Source of the DNA: Devosia sp. RR2S18
GTDB lineage: Bacteria; Pseudomonadota; Alphaproteobacteria; Rhizobiales; Devosiaceae
NCBI RefSeq assembly: GCF_030177755.1
Contig: NZ_CP126539.1
Location: 2,690,001 to 2,754,000 of the forward strand
Reading direction: 5' to 3'
DNA length: 64,000 bases
Shown in pieces: positions 1-12,427 of the stretch. The notes under the pieces were generated by a model. That model was given only the letters and a program-made list of their open reading frames with translations, was not told where the DNA came from and ran no database searches. Position numbers and translations under genes: made by a program. The number at the start of each line of letters is the position of its first letter. Position 1 is the stretch's first letter.

Positions 1-1354
1 GAGCGCGTTCTTCCGGTTCAGCGCGATCGGGCGGATGGTCCGCTCAACGGTATTGTTGTCGAGCTCGATGCGGCCATCGGTGAGGAACAGCACTAACCCC
101 GACCAGTATTTGGCGATGTAGCTCAAGGCCTCCCCAAGCGGCGCTTTCGCGGAGACGCGGGCGCGATGAAGGTCGAGCCAAGCCTTTGTCCGGGCGACGG
201 CTGGTCCGGATCGTTCCTGGCGAGCAGCGAGACGCTGTTCGGGGCCCAGGCCTCGGATCTCGGCTTCGATGGTATAGAGCTCGCCGATGAGCCGCACACC
301 CTCTTCCGCAATCGGGGCGGTGCCGGCGCGCGTGATCTCGATCAGCTTGCGACGGGCATGGGCCCAGCAATAGGCGAGTTGGATACCCGCGCCGACGCGG
401 GGGCGCGATCAGTCGGTTGTAGCCGGCATAGCCATCCACCTGCAGGATGCCGCCAAAGCCCTGCAATATCTGTTCGGCATGAAGACCACCTCGGCCCGGG
501 GCATAGGTGAAGGCAACACCGGGTGGTGCGGTGCCATTCCAGGGACGATCATCGCGGGCCAGGGCCCAGAAGTATCCGGTCTTGGTTTTGCGGGCACCGG
601 GATCGAGCACTGGCGCGCGAGTTTCATCCATGAACAGCTTGGATGAGCGCTTCAGATCCGCCATTAGGGCAGCATAGACCGGACGCAACTCGAAGGCGGC
701 CCGACCAACCCAGTCGGCCAGCGTTGAGCGGTCCAGATCAACACCCTGACGACTGAAGATCTGCGCCTGGCGATAGAGCGGGAGGTGGTCCGCATACTTG
801 CTGACCAGGACATGGGCGACCGTGGCCTCGGTCGGCAGCCCGCCAGGGATCAGCCGAGCGGGCGCCGGCGCCTGCACCACGCCGTCGGTGCAGGACCGGC
901 AGGCATATTTGGGGCGACGGGTCACGATCACGCGGAACTGGGCCGGGATCACGTCGAGCCGCTCGGAGACGTCCTCGCCGATGCAGTGCAGCCCGCCGCC
1001 ACAGCCACAGACCAGGCTTTCGGGTTCGATGATCTCTTCGATCCGCGGCAGGTGTTTGGGGAGTGAACCACGATTGGTACTGCGCGGCTTGGCCGGACGT
1101 CGGGCCAGCCGGTCCTCGGCGTCCTCCGCGGCCTGGACAACCGCGATTGCCATTTCCAGATCCTCCAGCGCCAGCTCGAACTGGTCCGGGTCGCTCTTTT
1201 CCGATCGACGCCCGAAGGCCGCCTGCTTGAACGCGGCAACCAGCTTTTCCAGTTGAGCGATCCGCTCGTCCTTGCGCTGATCACGCACCTCCGCTGCGAT
1301 CAGCATCGCCTTGAGGGCAGCAATGTCATCGGGAAGTTCGGCGGCATCGAGCAT
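1..1354 (-). pseudogene. tnpC: IS66 TnpC transposase, frameshifted and running off the window
   Basis: IS66 DDE transposase. The N-terminal part has the usual coiled-coil leader (DDIAALKAMLIAAEVRDQR), a zinc-finger-like CGCGGG region, and the core motif ILQVDGYAGYNRL. Just after that motif, at about 395-405, the frame is lost. The following coding sequence (GIQLAYCWAHARRKL on the minus strand) continues in another frame towards position 1. A one-base change in the run of Cs there is the simplest cause. The end of the gene is outside the window. Confidence 0.85.
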
Positions 1355-1423
1355 GGCCAGAATCTACCAGATCAGGCGCCGCCGATCCCGCAAAAAGACC
1401 AGCCCTGAGTCATCCTGCCGCAG

Positions 1424-1777
1424 TTATTCGACCGCTTCTGGTGCCCGCGCTTCTACCGCCCGAACCCGCCGCCAGTCGAGCCCAGAGAACAGCGCCTCGA
1501 ACTGCGCGTGGCTCAACGTCATCAGGCCGTCCTTCACCGCAGGCCAGCTGAAGTTGTGCTCTTCGAGGCGCTTGTAGGCCATGACGAGACCCGTGCCATC
1601 CCAGTAGAGCAACTTCAGCCGATCGCTTTTGCGAGCACGGAACACGAAGACCGTGCCGGTGAACGGGTCCTCGTGCAACACGTTCTTGACCAGCGCAGCC
1701 AGGCTGTCGTGACCTTTGCGGAAGTCGATCGGCTTGGTGGCTACCATGATCCGCACCCGGTTCGAGGGGAAGATCAT
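1424..1777 (-). CDS. tnpB: IS66 accessory protein TnpB
   Basis: 117 residues, the usual size for IS66 Orf2. It shows the family signatures KPIDFRKGHDSLAALV, DPFTGTVFVFRARKSDRLKLLYWDGTGL and YKRLEEHNFSWP. The protein is needed for transposition of IS66 elements, but its biochemical role is not settled. Its start overlaps the tnpA stop by four bases (ATGA), so the two are translationally coupled. The frame is intact. Confidence 0.92.
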   Translation of the reverse strand: MIFPSNRVRIMVATKPIDFRKGHDSLAALVKNVLHEDPFTGTVFVFRARKSDRLKLLYWDGTGLVMAYKRLEEHNFSWPAVKDGLMTLSHAQFEALFSGLDWRRVRAVEARAPEAVE

Positions 1778-2166
1778 GTGATCGCCGTCAGTGCACGAAC
1801 GACCGAAGCAATCCGGCGCGCGGAGGCACCTGGCTCCAGCCGGATGACCACCGATCCCAGCACGATCTCCGGCCCGACCGCCGCCACTGGTTCCGCCGCC
1901 GTTACATCCTCAACGACTGGAGCGACCATCAACGTCGCGAACTCCATCTGGTCCTTTGGCGCCGGTAGCACCAGCTTCCCGTTTCTAGCCATCGTCCGCC
2001 ACGAGGAGACATGGTTGGCCTTCAGACCATGCCGCAGCGCGACCTCGCCCACCGTGGTCCCAGGTCGAAGTGTCTCGGCGACAATCCGAGCCTTCTCATC
2101 ATCGGGCCATTGCCGGTTGCGGCGGCGCCTACCGCCACTTGTGAGAAACTCCAATGGAGCGTCCAT
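1774..2166 (-). CDS. tnpA: IS66 accessory protein TnpA
   Basis: 130 residues, IS66 Orf1. The N-terminal part carries a helix-turn-helix of the transposase-8 type (RQWPDDEKARIVAETLRPG, VGEVALRHGLKANHVSSWR) that probably binds the element's ends. The C-terminal half is the variable region ending in ASARRIASVVRAL, typical of the family. It is coupled to tnpB. No defect is visible. Confidence 0.9.
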   Translation of the reverse strand: MDAPLEFLTSGGRRRRNRQWPDDEKARIVAETLRPGTTVGEVALRHGLKANHVSSWRTMARNGKLVLPAPKDQMEFATLMVAPVVEDVTAAEPVAAVGPEIVLGSVVIRLEPGASARRIASVVRALTAIT

Positions 2167-2250
2167 GGAGAACCTCCCGCACCAACTTCAATCCGTGCGG
2201 AATCTCATGGCTGACAAAAGAACGGAAGGTGGGGCGGGAACACCGCTTAC

Positions 2251-2878
2251 GGCGCAGTAGCGCACCCTCCACAATCTTTGTTACCTCAAGCCAGTGGCGA
2301 ACTCGCTCCGAAGTTTTCGTCGAAAGCGGCGCCATCCGCCCCTCGCCGGTCGGATCGTTCTTTGCGCGTCTGATGAGAATTGAGAGATTACCTCGCTGGT
2401 TTTCTGTCAGGTCGTCGGCACGGAGGGCCACCAGTTCTCCTCTTCTGCATAAGGTGTCGAAGCCCACCCGAACCAGTATCTCGTCGCGCAGACCGATAAG
2501 ATCTGACGTACACTCCTCGATCAGGCGGTCCCGGATCTTGGCGGTGACCCCCAGTGCCTGGCCCGGGCGGGCGGGTTTCTTGCGACGCGCCCGCCGGACT
2601 GCGAGCTTCACGTCCTCATCCTTGCTGGGATCGGGGTGCCGCAGCAGGCGGTGAATGCGGGCGACGCCGCAAAGGCGGCGCCCTAATGTGGAGGGCAGCC
2701 GATGCTGCGCCTCCTTGTTCACATACTCCACCACGGTCTCTGGAGTGGCTGGAAGAGCGATGTGGCCATGGCTGATGCACCAAGCCTCAAAATGCTCCAT
2801 ATCCGCTGCATAGCCGCGCAGAGTATGATCGCTATAGGCGCCTTCGAGCCGCTCGAGTTCCTTGCGCCAGTCGCTCAT
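2251..2878 (-). pseudogene. Tyrosine recombinase (phage-type integrase), 3' end removed by IS66
   Basis: About 209 residues remain. The N-terminal SAM-like core-binding domain (1-85) is complete. The catalytic domain begins and has the first catalytic arginine (R146 in CRRGELVAL) and the beta-hairpin lysine region (RAKND, K173). It stops where IS66 begins at 2250/2251, so the HxxR box and the catalytic tyrosine are missing. The remaining open frame down to 2129 is IS66 sequence. The ATG overlaps the stop of the upstream protease gene by four bases (ATGA), so the recombinase belongs to that operon. As it stands it cannot recombine DNA. Confidence 0.85.
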
Positions 2879-4791
2879 GTCAGCTGCCCTGATTCAGCAG
2901 GTTCAACCGCCGAGTCCTGCTCCGTGCCGGCGATGTGGCGCAGTTCTTCGCCCGAGACTACGCGGCGCGCCACCAGGCGCTGAACCAAAGCCTCGATCAG
3001 GTGACGGTTCTCCAGAACAAGTCCGCGCGAGCGCAGCATGAGCTGCTGCAAGCGTTTCTCGAGACCACTTCTGGTGGCTAGATCGAGCTCATGAAGGCGG
3101 GAGACATCGAGATCGAACGACAGCAGCTGATCGAACAGGCCGGACCGGAACTGCGCTTCGACCAAGAGTTGGGTTGCCATGGCCAAATCGGTGCGAGCCC
3201 CGGCATCGCACCGTCCAAGCAGTTCCAGATCTGCCGCGCGGCCGGCCAGAGCAATGGTCACCAGATCCTCGATCCGGGCCCGGTCCAGGTAGAGCGCGCT
3301 GAGGTCGCTCACCATGGATCCGGCAGATCCGCCATTCTTCAGCAGCGAAACTGCACTTACCGGCACACCGAGGACCGCCGCCACGATGGCGTGGCCGGCT
3401 TCGTGCACCGCGACACGGCGGAGCTCGGCATAAGTACGATCGTCAGTGCCGACCATTGCATGTTCGAGGTCCTGGACGGTCAGCTGACGCGAACCGGCCA
3501 CGGCGCTCGACTTCGCCATTCCTACCCAACCGGCAATTGCAGCCGGCGTTGGCAAGCCGAAAGCGAAGGCGATGTCGACGACACGCTCCAGCTCCGAGGC
3601 TGCAAGATGGCTTCCCACGTAGAACCGAAAGAGATCGGCGACTTCCTCGCGGTTGCCCGGCGGGCTCACTGTCAAGGTCTGCCCGATGCGGCCCGCCCGC
3701 AGCACGGCCGCATCGACCCGCTCGGGATAGTTGCTGGCAGCGAGCAACACCAGCGGTTTGCTGGACCGCCGCAGCTTATCGATGTTGAGCAGCACGCCCG
3801 TGACGACAGTATTCCACCACTCGCGGTGCTCCGGTGCGAGCGTCCGCCGATCGGGCAAGGCTTCAAGCTCATCGATGAACCCAATCGTTTGACCGTTTTC
3901 TTCGACCTGGCGGAAGAACTCGGCAGCGGCCCGGGTGACCCCACCAAGATGCCCATCCGACAACTCAAACCATTCCTTGACGCTGGTCCCGACGAACCGC
4001 CACCCGGCAGCGCGGGCGATGGCTTGCGCCAGAAGGGTTTTGCCGGTTCCGGGCGGCCCCGCAAGAAGCGCGAAGGGGGCGTCACGCGAGGTGAGCTCAC
4101 CTATTTCGAGCTGCTGGAGACGGACGAGCAGCTCCGCGCTCCAGGCCCGTACCCGAGGCGAGAGCGGAAGTTCGGAAACCGGCGGGATAGTGCTGTCTGG
4201 GACCAGAGCGATCTCTTGGCGCTTGGCTGCAAGGCGGAGGCGGCGCAGACAATCGGCGGGCTGTGAGCGCGGACGGAGAGCCGCACAGAGTTCAGGAAGA
4301 TCAAGTGCGGCATCTTCGGCGCGGATCCCGCGGGCTCGCTTGCCGGTGACCTCTGAAATGGCTTTACGCAGCGAGCGCCGGCTCAAACCTGAAAATTTGA
4401 GGCTCACGTCGGCGGCGGTGCGGAGCGGCACCGGCACCAGCCCTTCCACGTCAGTGGAGATGGCGATGACCGCACTGCCGCCGCGCTGGGCAACGATCAG
4501 ACTGTCTTCTTCCTGGGCGGTGCTGCTGGCGCGTTTGCCGGGGCGATAGCCTTGCACAACGACATCTGTATAGTCGCGGTTCAATTGGCGGCGAAGGGCT
4601 GTGACCCAGCTGTCGCTCGGCACCTCGATCAGGACGACCATTCCGGGCTGGTGCTCCAGCGCATGGTCGAGTTTCTTGCCAATCAGTTGGTTTACCGCTT
4701 GCTGTGCCAGAATGCCTGCAACATCGATGACTTCGCGCAGCGGCGCTTCGTCGTCCTGGCCCTGGGCCTGGATCTGTGGAAATTTACGCAT
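2875..4791 (-). CDS. Soluble FtsH-like AAA+ protease, peptidase M41 family
   Basis: 638 residues. An N-terminal region of about 230 residues is unlike FtsH and has no membrane segment. It is followed by an AAA+ module: Walker A GPPGTGKT at 245-252, Walker B IGFIDE at 303-308, sensor-1 in AASN near 351-354 and the arginine region RAGRIG near 365-370. Then comes an M41 zinc peptidase: HEAGH at 463-467 and a likely third zinc ligand in TDLAMAT near D535. Family knowledge says such enzymes unfold and degrade proteins using ATP; lack of transmembrane helices implies a cytosolic enzyme. The start is supported by GAGGAG just upstream. It lies 74 bases after the GIY-YIG gene and overlaps the recombinase by ATGA, so the three form an operon. 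The substrate is unknown. Confidence 0.88.
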   Translation of the reverse strand: MRKFPQIQAQGQDDEAPLREVIDVAGILAQQAVNQLIGKKLDHALEHQPGMVVLIEVPSDSWVTALRRQLNRDYTDVVVQGYRPGKRASSTAQEEDSLIVAQRGGSAVIAISTDVEGLVPVPLRTAADVSLKFSGLSRRSLRKAISEVTGKRARGIRAEDAALDLPELCAALRPRSQPADCLRRLRLAAKRQEIALVPDSTIPPVSELPLSPRVRAWSAELLVRLQQLEIGELTSRDAPFALLAGPPGTGKTLLAQAIARAAGWRFVGTSVKEWFELSDGHLGGVTRAAAEFFRQVEENGQTIGFIDELEALPDRRTLAPEHREWWNTVVTGVLLNIDKLRRSSKPLVLLAASNYPERVDAAVLRAGRIGQTLTVSPPGNREEVADLFRFYVGSHLAASELERVVDIAFAFGLPTPAAIAGWVGMAKSSAVAGSRQLTVQDLEHAMVGTDDRTYAELRRVAVHEAGHAIVAAVLGVPVSAVSLLKNGGSAGSMVSDLSALYLDRARIEDLVTIALAGRAADLELLGRCDAGARTDLAMATQLLVEAQFRSGLFDQLLSFDLDVSRLHELDLATRSGLEKRLQQLMLRSRGLVLENRHLIEALVQRLVARRVVSGEELRHIAGTEQDSAVEPAESGQLT

Positions 4792-4865
4792 GAGTTCTCC
4801 TCGGCGCTCCGCTTGGGAGCTCCTGGATTGAAAAAGGTGGGGTGGGGTGATTGGGCTCGCCGGTG

Positions 4866-6089
4866 CTAGGCCGCGGGTGACAGAGAGTCCGGATCGTCTG
4901 CTGGAGGTCGGGTCCAGGCCGAGAGGTTCGGGCCTTTCGATCCGATAAGGAAATTGGCGGCGCCGCTACCGGAGCCAAAGCAAAGCGGTTCGTTCAGGCG
5001 AAAGCGTCCATTGTCCTCGGCCAAGACGCCGGAAAAGAGCCATTCGTGGCGACGGGTCATGGGCGCCGAACCGCTCGAACGGGTTACGCGCGAGCGAACT
5101 TCGCTGCCCGCGTGCACGATCCACTCGCCCTCATGTTCGGTTGCCTCAGCATTTATGCCTGCGGCATAGAGGTGGTAGGCGGTGCCGTCCGCGGGGCGCC
5201 TTCCGGCAAAAACCGGATATTCTGGATCGCCCTCCGCTCCAACGACGAAATGGAGGACGGGAATATCGGCGAAGCCGAACCCGGCAGCCTTGGCGAGACA
5301 GAGGGCCTGGGCCACGAAAAGGCGCAGCTCAAGATATTCCGCAAAGTCGCCGCGATCGCCATTTGGCAGGTGGTGGGCGAGCTTGTACCCCGGCAGCCCG
5401 TTTACAATGAGGCCCAGTATTCGTTCGGCAACGCCGGCCTGTTCCTCGGACATGTGCCCGGCAGCGTCCCGGATCACCACGAGCCGGTCAAAGCCGCTGA
5501 GATGACCATCAACGATACGCTGGCGGCCCTTGAAAGACTTGCCGGTGTAAGCCTTCTTGCCGGTGAGCGCGCAATAGATGATCGGGCCGTTGATCCCGTG
5601 GGAGAGATCAGTGCAGTCGGCGACATCGACGATGAAAATCTCGGGGACAAAGCCGATTGCACTGGAATGGCTGACCGAGGAGCGGAGCTCAACCACATTA
5701 GTGTGGCGAAAACCCTGCTTGGCGCCTGGGGTCAGCGAAGGCGAACTGGTCCCCCCTGCCCCCTTCCCGGACGTACCCGATGGCATGCTGATGCGCGTGT
5801 GCGGCCCGATCTCGCCAGGTTCACGCTGGAGAACGCCCGCCTCGATCATGGCCATGATCGCCTCGACCGGTGCGGGATGGCCGGGCAGAACAACGATCAA
5901 TTCGGCGATGCTCGCCGAGCCGGTCTCGAGCACGGTGGCGAGGACGCGCACCTGGACGTCGAAGGTTATGGCCCAGTGCCGCACGAGGCCCGGCGCATCA
6001 ATGCCGGACCCGGTCGGATCGATTGTGTTGAAGAACGAAGAAACGCACTTGCCCGCGATAGCGCAGGCGTCGAAAATAGACGCAGCCAT
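4866..6089 (-). CDS. GIY-YIG-like nuclease protein with C-terminal DUF4357
   Basis: 407 residues. Residues 35-95 look like a winged-helix (transcription-regulator-like) segment. Residues 95-130 are a Gly/Ser linker. Residues 165-270 resemble a GIY-YIG nuclease domain: IIYCAL, then KAYTGKS in place of the YIG motif, then GRQRIVDGH holding the conserved Arg and His, and AERILGLI with a candidate metal-binding Glu (E222). The C-terminal ~110 residues match the DUF4357 pattern, ending FGSGSGAANFLIGSKGPNLSAW. Proteins with this GIY-YIG plus DUF4357 architecture are often found in defence or mobile-element settings (family knowledge). The start has GAGG upstream. It is the first gene of the protease-recombinase operon. 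The YTG variant leaves catalytic activity unproven. Confidence 0.72.
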   Translation of the reverse strand: MAASIFDACAIAGKCVSSFFNTIDPTGSGIDAPGLVRHWAITFDVQVRVLATVLETGSASIAELIVVLPGHPAPVEAIMAMIEAGVLQREPGEIGPHTRISMPSGTSGKGAGGTSSPSLTPGAKQGFRHTNVVELRSSVSHSSAIGFVPEIFIVDVADCTDLSHGINGPIIYCALTGKKAYTGKSFKGRQRIVDGHLSGFDRLVVIRDAAGHMSEEQAGVAERILGLIVNGLPGYKLAHHLPNGDRGDFAEYLELRLFVAQALCLAKAAGFGFADIPVLHFVVGAEGDPEYPVFAGRRPADGTAYHLYAAGINAEATEHEGEWIVHAGSEVRSRVTRSSGSAPMTRRHEWLFSGVLAEDNGRFRLNEPLCFGSGSGAANFLIGSKGPNLSAWTRPPADDPDSLSPAA

Positions 6090-7396
6090 TGTAACCTCTA
6101 CTACAGGTTGTGATGGTCAGGCTGCCGGAAACCCGTTGGCGCGGGTCCGGTAGCCGCTCTTTCGAACGGAACCTGGCCAAAAGACACCATCATTGGCGCC
6201 TTCTGCAGTGAAGATGGGAGAGGTTTTCCGAACCGTCAACCCAGCATCGAATCAGATGTTGGATGTGGTTAACGCGAGCCTAATTGCGTCTATGCCGCCT
6301 GTACAATCAACTGCTTAGTCGGAAGAGTTCATCTGGTACGGCGGGCAACGTCTCGTCATCATACGATGCCTAGGTGTCGGCGGATCGAGGGCAGGCTGAA
6401 TTTCTGAGGCCAACCGCAGTGGCCGCCCTGGTGCAGCAGCCCCCCTGATTCGACATGCTCACCCCTTGGCCGCCACTCCCATGCGCGGCTCTTTTTCGAC
6501 CGCTCAGTCTGTTCAGCTTCACCCCGGGAAGCTGGGCAAATGTTTGGTAACGGCGATTGTCAATCGTGCAACCTCGGTCCGGCGAGTCCAATCGCTCGGG
6601 TGGCAGTGCCAGTGTGCCGCCTTCTCATCACCAGCTAAACCGCTTGTCCGGTCAGTTCATGGCGGAGTGTCTTAGGCTCTCGATTTGGGGAAGGTGTTGT
6701 TGCCCATCCACCCTGCCCCTTTTTCCCGCTGACTGACATGTACGCCCCCATCCGCGGCTACGCTTTCCACGATCACCTCGCCCTCCCTGCCCGCAGGAAT
6801 GTGCCGGCAGGAAGGGAGGCACAGGTCGGGCGCCCCAGGGCAGCTCCGGCATTTCCACTGGTCATTCTACTGCAATGAGTTCGCCATTGCTTTCAGATCA
6901 GGTACGACAGTGTTCCGAGCATCGGCTTCGGGAGATCGGGTGAGCCGCGCTCTGTGCCAGCAGGTTGGCACCGGGCGCCTCAGCACTGCGTCCATTAGTA
7001 TGGGAATGCATGCTGTCGCCGCGGTAGCGTATCGCCGATCCTGCCGCAGCCCCCTACTTCAAGGCTACATGTTCGACTGTACACGTTATCGCACTAATGT
7101 CAGTAACGCCTGACCTCAACCCCGTCCCCCAATCCTTCCAAAGATGCGCCGATCCTGCCCCCTCGCGGCCGAGCGGGAACCCGCCGGTGCACGACAGCAG
7201 CCTCGACCGACACCGCACCATGCCGTCACCGAGGCCCACTTCTGACGTGCGAGAAAGGGTAGATGGGCGGGCCGAGCAATCGGTGGGCCCTGCGGGTCAT
7301 CACCAGCCTGCCCGTCCCTCTCGAGCCCCGCCGCTCATGACGCCGCTTGCAAGATCAGAGAGGAACGAAAAAACTGAACCAACAATCCTATCGGTG
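6090..7396. other. 1.3 kb without a recognisable gene
   Basis: Neither strand offers a reading frame with recognisable motifs; the short open frames here have atypical composition. The left part must hold the promoter of the GIY-YIG operon. The right part holds the 3' region of the sugar permease gene. No clear terminator hairpin with a T run was seen. It may be decayed DNA between two acquired modules. Confidence 0.5.
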
Positions 7397-10975: not shown

Positions 10976-12427
10976 GTGAATTTCACTTTGATCGGTATCG
11001 ATGTGGGGACAACAGCCACCAAGGCGACCCTGATCGATGCACAGGGCCGAGAACTCGCCAGCTTCAGCCGTCCGCACGGTACCGATCGGTCCGGTCCGGG
11101 CAAGGCCGAGCAGTCCGCCGGCGTCTGGATGCAAAGCGTTCTGGCGGCACTGCAGCACTTTGCCGATCATGCCGACCTGTCGAACCTTGCCGGCATCGGG
11201 CTCACCTCGCAGGTCAACACCCATCTATTTGTCGACAGCGCAGGCGCACCTCTGCGCCCGGCCATTACCTGGCAGGACACCCGATCTGCAGCAGATGCAG
11301 CACACCTCGATCATGCGGTCACCGCCGAACAGAAGACCGCCTGGTTCGGCGGCCCTGTCCCCATTGATGCCAGCCATGCCCTGTCGCGCATGGCTTTCAT
11401 GGCTCGCACCGAGCCCGAGAGATGGGCGAGAACTCGGCACGTGCTCTTGCCCAAGGACTTCTGTGCCTTTCAGCTGACCGGCGAGCTGGCTTCCGATCCG
11501 GTGTCGGCGACCGGGCTCGTCGATAGCAAGGGAAGTTACGTCAATGCCCTGCTCGAGCTCGTTCCCGGGGCCAGGCAACGCCTACCCCCGCTGTTCCCCT
11601 TCCATCATGCTGTGGGTCGCGTCAAAGCGGGGCTGCCGTGTGCGGGCACGCCCGTCATGGTGGGGGCAATGGACGCCTGGGCCGGCATGTTCGGGTGCGG
11701 AGTGATCGAGGAAGGGGACATGATGTACCAGTCCGGCACCAGCGAGGTTGCCGGGATCGTATCGTCCCAGGTCGTACCAACGCCGGGCGTGATCCTGTTT
11801 CCGCCTTATCAGGGCATTCGCATGCATGCCGCCCCGACGCAGGCCGGCGGTGCCTCGATAGCCTGGCTGTCCGCTCTCTTGGGACGGTCGCCGCAGGACC
11901 TTTCCCTTTTGGCTGAAAGGCTGAACCGCTCCGAGACGATCCCCTTCTTTCTGCCGCACCTGGCCGGCGAGCGGGCACCGGTCTGGGATGCGGCGTCGCG
12001 CGGCGTCTTTGCGCGGCTCGATGAGAGTGCGGGTCCGGGACATCTGGCCCATGCAGTGATGGAGGGCGTTGCGCACTCGGTTCGCTGGGCCTTCGCAGCA
12101 CTCGAAAAATCGGCTGACCTGCCGCTGGGGAACGTACGGATCGGCGGCGGCGGCTCGCGATCCAACGTCTGGTGCCAGATACGCGCTGACGTATTGGGGA
12201 CGGGAATGCAACGAGCTGCGGTGCCTGCTGCAGCTGCTCTGGGCGCGGCGATCATTGCCGGCGTGGGATGCGGTGCGTTTAGCTCACTTACCAATGCCGT
12301 TCGGCAACTGGTGCAGTATGACCGCGAGTTTCTACCAGATGCCGGCAGAATTGAGTACTACAAGGAGCGGCACGGACATTTCCTTGCTCTATATGAAAGC
12401 ATAGCACCGTTCAATCAGCGCTTCTGA
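10976..12427 (+). CDS. FGGY-family carbohydrate kinase (xylulokinase-like)
   Basis: 483 residues from a GTG start at 10976 with GAGGGG ten bases upstream. The N-terminal phosphate-binding loop is GIDVGTTATKATLID (7-21). The WQDTRS motif sits near residue 98 and the catalytic Asp in GAMDAWAGMFGCG. The C-terminal FGGY box is GGGSRSNVWCQIRADVLG. It phosphorylates a ketose or polyol with ATP. Sitting divergent from a sugar importer, it probably traps the imported sugar. No isomerase or dehydrogenase is alongside, so xylulose is only one possible substrate. Confidence 0.88.
   Translation: MNFTLIGIDVGTTATKATLIDAQGRELASFSRPHGTDRSGPGKAEQSAGVWMQSVLAALQHFADHADLSNLAGIGLTSQVNTHLFVDSAGAPLRPAITWQDTRSAADAAHLDHAVTAEQKTAWFGGPVPIDASHALSRMAFMARTEPERWARTRHVLLPKDFCAFQLTGELASDPVSATGLVDSKGSYVNALLELVPGARQRLPPLFPFHHAVGRVKAGLPCAGTPVMVGAMDAWAGMFGCGVIEEGDMMYQSGTSEVAGIVSSQVVPTPGVILFPPYQGIRMHAAPTQAGGASIAWLSALLGRSPQDLSLLAERLNRSETIPFFLPHLAGERAPVWDAASRGVFARLDESAGPGHLAHAVMEGVAHSVRWAFAALEKSADLPLGNVRIGGGGSRSNVWCQIRADVLGTGMQRAAVPAAAALGAAIIAGVGCGAFSSLTNAVRQLVQYDREFLPDAGRIEYYKERHGHFLALYESIAPFNQRF

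Follow-up and report, generated by a model that had tools for sequence, protein, structure and literature searches.

Related systems and the Devosia locus

Precedent for protease-controlled mobility is provided by the repressor/metalloprotease switches of integrative and conjugative elements, including the ICEBs1-type ImmR/ImmA/Int switch, in which a DNA-binding protein, a metalloprotease, and a tyrosine integrase are encoded in one element. Host AAA+ enzymes such as ClpX also control transposition complexes. Here, a trio of genes was analyzed in a 64,000-nt stretch of the genome of Devosia sp. RR2S18 (NZ_CP126539.1, 2,690,001-2,754,000; hereinafter referred to as the window, whose positions serve as coordinates), composed of a GIY-YIG/DUF4357-like gene, an AAA+/M41 protease gene, and a tyrosine recombinase gene. 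We tentatively read this trio as a 4.3-4.7 kb tyrosine-recombinase mobile unit with an accessory pair that controls its mobility. The trio is similar to ImmR/ImmA/Int in combining a candidate DNA-binding protein, a metalloprotease, and a tyrosine integrase in one element, and the N-terminus of the first protein may bind DNA, by our reading. In contrast to ImmA, which is a small non-AAA peptidase, the trio protease is an AAA+/M41 enzyme, and its cleavage of the first protein would be hypothetical.

The nearest precedent found was Tsy, which resembles the proposed unit in being run by tyrosine recombinases and in having a GIY-YIG nuclease as the counterpart of the nuclease-like first protein. 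Tsy requires both of its tyrosine recombinases, and its GIY-YIG nuclease helps without being essential (Faure et al. 2023; PMC10293859). The same paper reports that no inverted repeats or canonical ends were detected, and that the ends are asymmetric, 135 bp of one and 20 bp of the other being sufficient. Tsy differs from the trio in having YRec, a helix-turn-helix (HTH) protein, and TnsF with zinc fingers and in inserting into comM, and section 13 of that paper does not mention a protease. In the trio, a single recombinase is combined with an AAA+/M41 protease, and the units did not have a target gene in common. Neither a further recombinase nor a separate HTH gene was seen in the unit, and short open reading frames (ORFs) crossed the joined flanks in four of eight loci, comM itself not having been searched.

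Genes of Tn7-like transposons (TnsABC-TniQ) can be preceded by the same protease family upstream of TnsB, as described below, but no Tns match was found in 19 kb around the window trio (locus L044). In the main text of a Tn7 cargo survey, a word search showed that the words protease, peptidase, and FtsH are absent (PMC8649781). No description of such a trio, or of a nuclease-protease pair with exchangeable nucleases, was found in the open-licence literature searched, in agreement with a preliminary description of this DNA, which knew of no system with the trio in one operon.

Recurrence of the trio in Devosiaceae

Three minus-strand ORFs were found at 4866-6089 (407 amino acids, aa), 2875-4791 (638 aa), and 2129-2878 (249 aa). 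The GIY-YIG/DUF4357-like gene is followed after a 74-base gap by the protease gene, which overlaps the recombinase gene by four bases (ATGA), as the preliminary description had stated.

The neighbours of the protease were counted at 42 loci, which correspond to proteases longer than 500 aa in 40 stretches. This sample was non-random: it comprised high-scoring places, some of which were left out, together with further copies of the own genome and G154 and one of G005. The genome searches used here and below scored only some candidates per genome, and their tallies are lower bounds. The distance limits were 400 bp upstream for the first gene and, downstream, 300 bp for the recombinase, 1.5 kb for DUF6634, and 4.5 kb for TnsB. 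A GIY gene was located upstream of the protease at 33 of 42 loci, a gene for a PD-(D/E)xK-like protein at four, and neither at five, which were the five Tn7-linked loci. Downstream, a recombinase gene was found at 15 loci, DUF6634, alone or accompanied by further small genes, at 11, Tn7-like genes at five, and none of these at 11. The trio is therefore real and recurrent, but it is not obligate, the recombinase being one among several downstream partners.

The order protease-recombinase was the same in 16 fetched loci, and the two genes overlapped by 4-17 bases in 15 of them. The overlap was a 4-base ATGA or GTGA in nine loci and, counted by the nearest ATG, 8-17 bases in six, while the remaining junction (L066) was decayed. 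The preliminary description had allowed that relatives of the protease might normally lack both partners, or that the ATGA overlap might be unique to this sequence; neither was found. Of the two partners that it had proposed to count, the GIY gene was found at most loci and the recombinase at 15 of the 42.

The identities of the three proteins co-varied in 10 GIY trios (Mantel, 3 and 1 of 2,000 permutations). In a 71-row tree, which included loci picked for carrying a recombinase, the recombinase label was strongly clustered and required at least four changes, suggesting several gains or losses rather than a single frozen operon.

Ends of the unit and the terminal motif

Related trios in different surroundings were available as two groups of loci, L055/L058 and L061/L063/L068 (72-92% identity within a group). 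L055 and L058 were 91.5% identical over 4.7 kb; L061 shared 78% with L063 and 72% with L068 over about 4.4 kb, with one 429-bp piece at 88%. Outside the protease genes, no further similarity longer than 150 bp was detected in these pairs. In all five trios, similarity stopped within one base of the recombinase stop codon. At the other end, it began no more than a few bases from the motif [AG]TTATCGnnCAT, which lay 236-340 bp before the GIY start used; one motif copy had C in place of T.

A relaxed motif pattern, applied to the 700 bp preceding the GIY gene, matched in eight of 13 loci with a recombinase versus none of 19 without (Fisher 1e-4). After removal of the five motif-defining loci, the counts were 3/8 versus 0/19 (p 0.019). 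The exact motif occurred 18 times in 2.07 million strand-bases of fetched loci. Exact copies were also located away from the unit in L044, L046, L051, L068, L071, and L124. The eight motif-bearing units were 4,342-4,710 bp in length; for L047, L051, and L065, the left end was placed by the motif alone. In addition, the motif was present upstream of protease-less recombinase relatives with other neighbours (L118, L100), and a degenerate form was located at the left boundary common to L115 and L116. Its presence beside recombinases that have different neighbours shows that the motif goes with the recombinase rather than with the GIY gene and the protease.

Based on these end points, the trio is probably a compact mobile element whose recombinase acts on the motif end and on the end at the recombinase stop. 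In the window copy, similarity to the closest relative (L046) extends through the region upstream of the first gene (6090-6224) and stops near 6224. Only a degenerate counterpart of the motif was found there (near 6224-6240), and the left end of this copy would lie near 6224.

In L068 (oriented), two left-end motif copies were observed at 6911 and 7012, about 100 bp apart, and an inverted copy at 11606, about 150 bp past the recombinase stop. These extra copies are perhaps remnants of earlier insertions.

Features of the three proteins

The active-site set of GIY-YIG nucleases comprises Y..YxG, Arg, His, Glu, and Asn. In the first protein (4866-6089, minus strand), a divergent GIY-YIG domain was placed at about residues 150-240, followed by a DUF4357-like C-terminus. 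DUF4357 was its only Pfam match (E 8e-4), under the Pfam cut-off, and was matched at E 0.01 in 24 of 27 first-protein relatives. The Pfam GIY-YIG model (PF01541) matched none of the 27 members at E 0.01, with E 0.02 only for a Bosea homologue, and a search of the PDB with the GIY profile gave no significant match. GIY-YIG identity is suggested because Y172, Y181, G183, R191, and E222 were present in all 27 aligned proteins, because the order of secondary-structure elements in the predicted structure (pLDDT 77.4) was judged compatible with this fold, and because the profile matched, at 97.5%, the Bosea homologue annotated as "GIY-YIG nuclease family." The GIY-YIG part of the label in the preliminary description thus has support from invariant residues and this homologue, whereas DUF4357 remained under threshold and the Pfam GIY-YIG model did not match.

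At the Asn position, N was found in 23 of 27 proteins and His in the window protein. A His was located 5-6 residues past R191 in seven of 27, including the window protein (5 residues). In alignment A2, the His was at its usual place in seven of 12 trios versus none of 15 GIY proteins without a recombinase. Since the usual His was found only in trio members, the His-bearing trios are more plausible carriers of an active nuclease than the other pairs. DUF4357 has been noted together with GIY-YIG domains in part of an earlier study (PMC4619093), and the PADLOC candidate PDC-S14 matched the DUF4357 end of the first protein (9e-12). PD-(D/E)xK-like proteins in the place of the GIY gene were identified in L053, L054, L071, L074, L124, and L125, with E66, D124, E139, and K141 invariant in all six.

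The second protein (2875-4791, minus strand) matched Pfam AAA (4.8e-20) and Peptidase_M41 (1.4e-11). G248, G250, K251, E308, N354, R365, R368, H463, E464, H467, and D535 were present in 37 of 37 aligned relatives and D307 in 36. The ATPase (Walker A/B, sensor N, Arg) and zinc-site (HExxH plus Asp) residues were thus complete apart from one D307 exception, in line with the Walker A/B and HEAGH motifs noted in the preliminary description. FtsH is likewise an AAA+ domain fused to an M41 peptidase, with identical catalytic residues, but it has an N-terminal membrane part (PF01434). In the trio protease, this place is taken by about 235 N-terminal aa that are specific to the family, for which a PDB search gave no significant match. 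Assignment as an FtsH equivalog was rejected (113.1 bits, where NCBIfam TIGR01241 requires 600). The three highest 19-mer hydropathy values were located at 465-467 in the window protease and at 8 and 105-106 in the FtsH of the same genome; an N-terminal 19-mer value of at least 1.6 was found in 11 of 37 relatives. The protease is likely soluble.

The defence system IetAS, in which an AAA protein is paired with a separate serine protease, was also rejected as an identification: IetA matched the AAA part only (1.4e-14), and no serine protease model matched any of the three trio proteins. A single-protein scan of genome contigs with the protease gave no match. Matches were found in 31 phage records, none of them over 80% of the query; the best 10 of the 31 each covered about half of it, two being annotated as ftsH, and these 10 were read as ordinary FtsH.

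The third protein, of which the N-terminal approximately 209 residues are encoded at 2251-2878 (minus strand), is a XerC/D-like tyrosine recombinase. The catalytic set R-K-H-R-(H/W)-Y was complete in 12 of 12 intact relatives (R139, K166, H243, R246, W269, Y278). A search of genome contigs with the recombinase alignment returned 12 named loci, and no match was found in viral contigs. Relatives of this recombinase with other small genes upstream were observed in L100, L117, L120, and L121, where the recombinase may belong to additional kinds of mobile unit.

The protease family beside Tn7-like and other genes

A second copy of the protease gene was identified in the same genome (L045, C1:5000-24900), followed on the same strand by genes for TnsB, a TniB/TnsC-type ATPase, and a TniQ-like protein. 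Among the matches listed for 136 genomes of the family, a same-strand protease was found within 6 kb upstream of TnsB at 14 of 27 Devosiaceae places, and on the opposite strand at one more, against a rough chance expectation of far less than one. This comparison used at least 114 protease places, down to E 6.7e-30. The same protease-Tns order was found outside the family in L171, L177, L181, L182, and L183. No clear TnsB-site-like repeats were seen in the protease-tns gap in seven loci. Beyond the family, the N-terminus of the protease was rare, being detected in seven of 385 sampled genomes of the class and 12 of 398 of the phylum, the own genome being counted in both. On a Bosea plasmid, the order was GIY-YIG, AAA, and an Xre/MbcA/ParS-type gene, with genes for a RES-type protein and DUF6634 upstream.

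A third protease relative in the own genome, at C1:3721441-3722700 (L189), was broken and had an internal stop. In L049 (10654-11505), a 283-aa tyrosine-recombinase-like ORF, reminiscent of TnsF, was located between the protease and the TnsA-like gene of a Tn7-like element. In L082 (10933-15205), HamA (PF08878) and a DEAD-box helicase were encoded beside the protease and Tn7-like genes, and probably constitute a Hachiman-type pair.

Interpretation of the trio

In the reading favoured here, the XerC/D-like recombinase would act on two ends, one marked by TTATCGnnCAT some 236-340 bp before the first gene and the other at the stop codon of the recombinase gene itself. The nuclease-like protein and the AAA+/M41 protease would form an accessory pair, in which the protease would unfold or degrade the recombinase or the nuclease-like protein and thereby license or end recombination. 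Provided that the unit is a mobile element, we regard the chance that the pair controls its mobility as about even. Control of mobility leads as a role for the pair on three grounds: the protease is found with two recombination machineries that are unrelated to each other (tyrosine recombinase and Tn7-like), only trios retain the GIY His, and in Tsy a GIY-YIG nuclease assists an element run by tyrosine recombinases. If this is true, the element would supply an AAA+ protease of its own, coordinated with the recombinase, and proteolytic control of mobility could be tested in a unit of about 4.5 kb, with relatives of the protease also present next to Tn7-like genes.

Several observations weigh against this reading. 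The motif was missing in five of 13 GIY trios, including that of the window, and upstream of the PD-(D/E)xK-like gene in all three such trios. The preliminary description had proposed a regulated excision/integration machine and had looked to attachment-site repeats at the ends of uninterrupted loci. Comparison did reveal a unit whose two end points stay constant while its location differs, which supports that option, but no direct repeats of 6 bp or longer were present at both ends in any of the eight units, and no empty site of L058, the one locus tried, was found in 75 genomes. Related recombinases occurred without the protease at 20 of 36 places among the matches listed (40 rows, of which four second pieces were dropped), suggesting that the pair is dispensable; one of these 20 cases (G233) had a protease fragment just upstream (L123). 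Other neighbouring genes also overlapped such recombinases by 4-8 bases (L100, L120, L121), and the coupling is therefore not special to the protease. No genome except G296 (50 and 43%) had two recombinase matches of comparable identity, giving no sign of recent intragenomic spread. The GIY-protease pair exists with many partners, which fits a role as cargo nearly as well.

As a possible alternative of this kind, raised in the preliminary description as a defence/addiction module, the nuclease-like/protease pair would be defence or inter-element-competition cargo of many mobile DNAs, in which proteolysis toggles the nuclease and the recombinase is the vehicle. The two exchangeable nuclease-type first genes, the several third partners, and the patchy occurrence of the protease family are consistent with cargo, as are the HamA and helicase genes in L082, the match to PDC-S14, and the neighbours on the Bosea plasmid, namely the RES-type protein, the antitoxin-like Xre/MbcA/ParS gene, and an ABC-three-component system. 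In contrast, the usual His was missing in 20 of 27 GIY proteins, including all 15 without a recombinase, making nuclease activity doubtful there. Further, the five Tns-linked loci lacked both kinds of first gene, and a steady place upstream of tns genes would be unusual for plain cargo. Between the two roles, we lean slightly toward control of mobility. If the pair is defence cargo instead, it would be a nuclease-protease pair with exchangeable nucleases, of which no description was found in the literature searched.

It is rather unlikely that the trio is a stable accessory operon residing at integration hot spots, moving by homologous recombination or in larger islands and with the motif as an operator to which the recombinase binds. 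The missing att repeats and empty site are in line with such an operon, and L058 and L066, which carry different trios, share a 6.9-kb neighbour block at 82%. Many trios also adjoin polysaccharide genes by our reading of their sequences; a count of neighbourhoods with at least two matches (5/15 recombinase loci versus 1/39 others) was circular, the queries coming mostly from recombinase loci, and was not relied on. Nevertheless, both limits of similarity coincided in five loci whose flanks differed, and the motif followed the recombinase to loci with other genes. Origin of the trio by insertion sequence (IS)-driven rearrangement or decay is suggested by the split window copy and by the broken recombinase gene of its nearest relative (L046), but was rejected as highly improbable, since the order recurs and nearly all protease-recombinase junctions overlap.

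More broadly, and with some doubt, this dedicated AAA+/M41 family might be a shared control part of unrelated mobility machines of Alphaproteobacteria, namely tyrosine-recombinase micro-elements, Tn7-like transposons, and DUF6634-bearing islands, where it would remodel or destroy a recombination complex or repressor in the manner of a private ClpXP.

The interrupted window copy and other features

The recombinase gene of the window is split after about 209 residues by a 2,635-bp insertion with an 8-bp target-site duplication, GGCGCAGT (2251-2258), which would have inactivated this copy. The last approximately 40 residues of the 249-aa ORF are thus not native, and the normal N-terminal half noted in the preliminary description corresponds to the residues before them. 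The rest of the recombinase gene is found outside the window, about 0.4-0.65 kb to its left (L044 9349-9588). The right 2,250 bp of the insertion occupy 1-2250 (minus strand), with ORFs at 1774-2166, 1424-1777, and 44-1354, from which we read it as IS66-type. A copy with 99.9% identity was observed just upstream of the second protease gene of the same genome (L045).

Elsewhere in the window, a polysaccharide-type locus with IS elements was observed at 34992-60226, in which a WcaJ-like gene was identified by homology search and the other assignments were made from the sequences alone.

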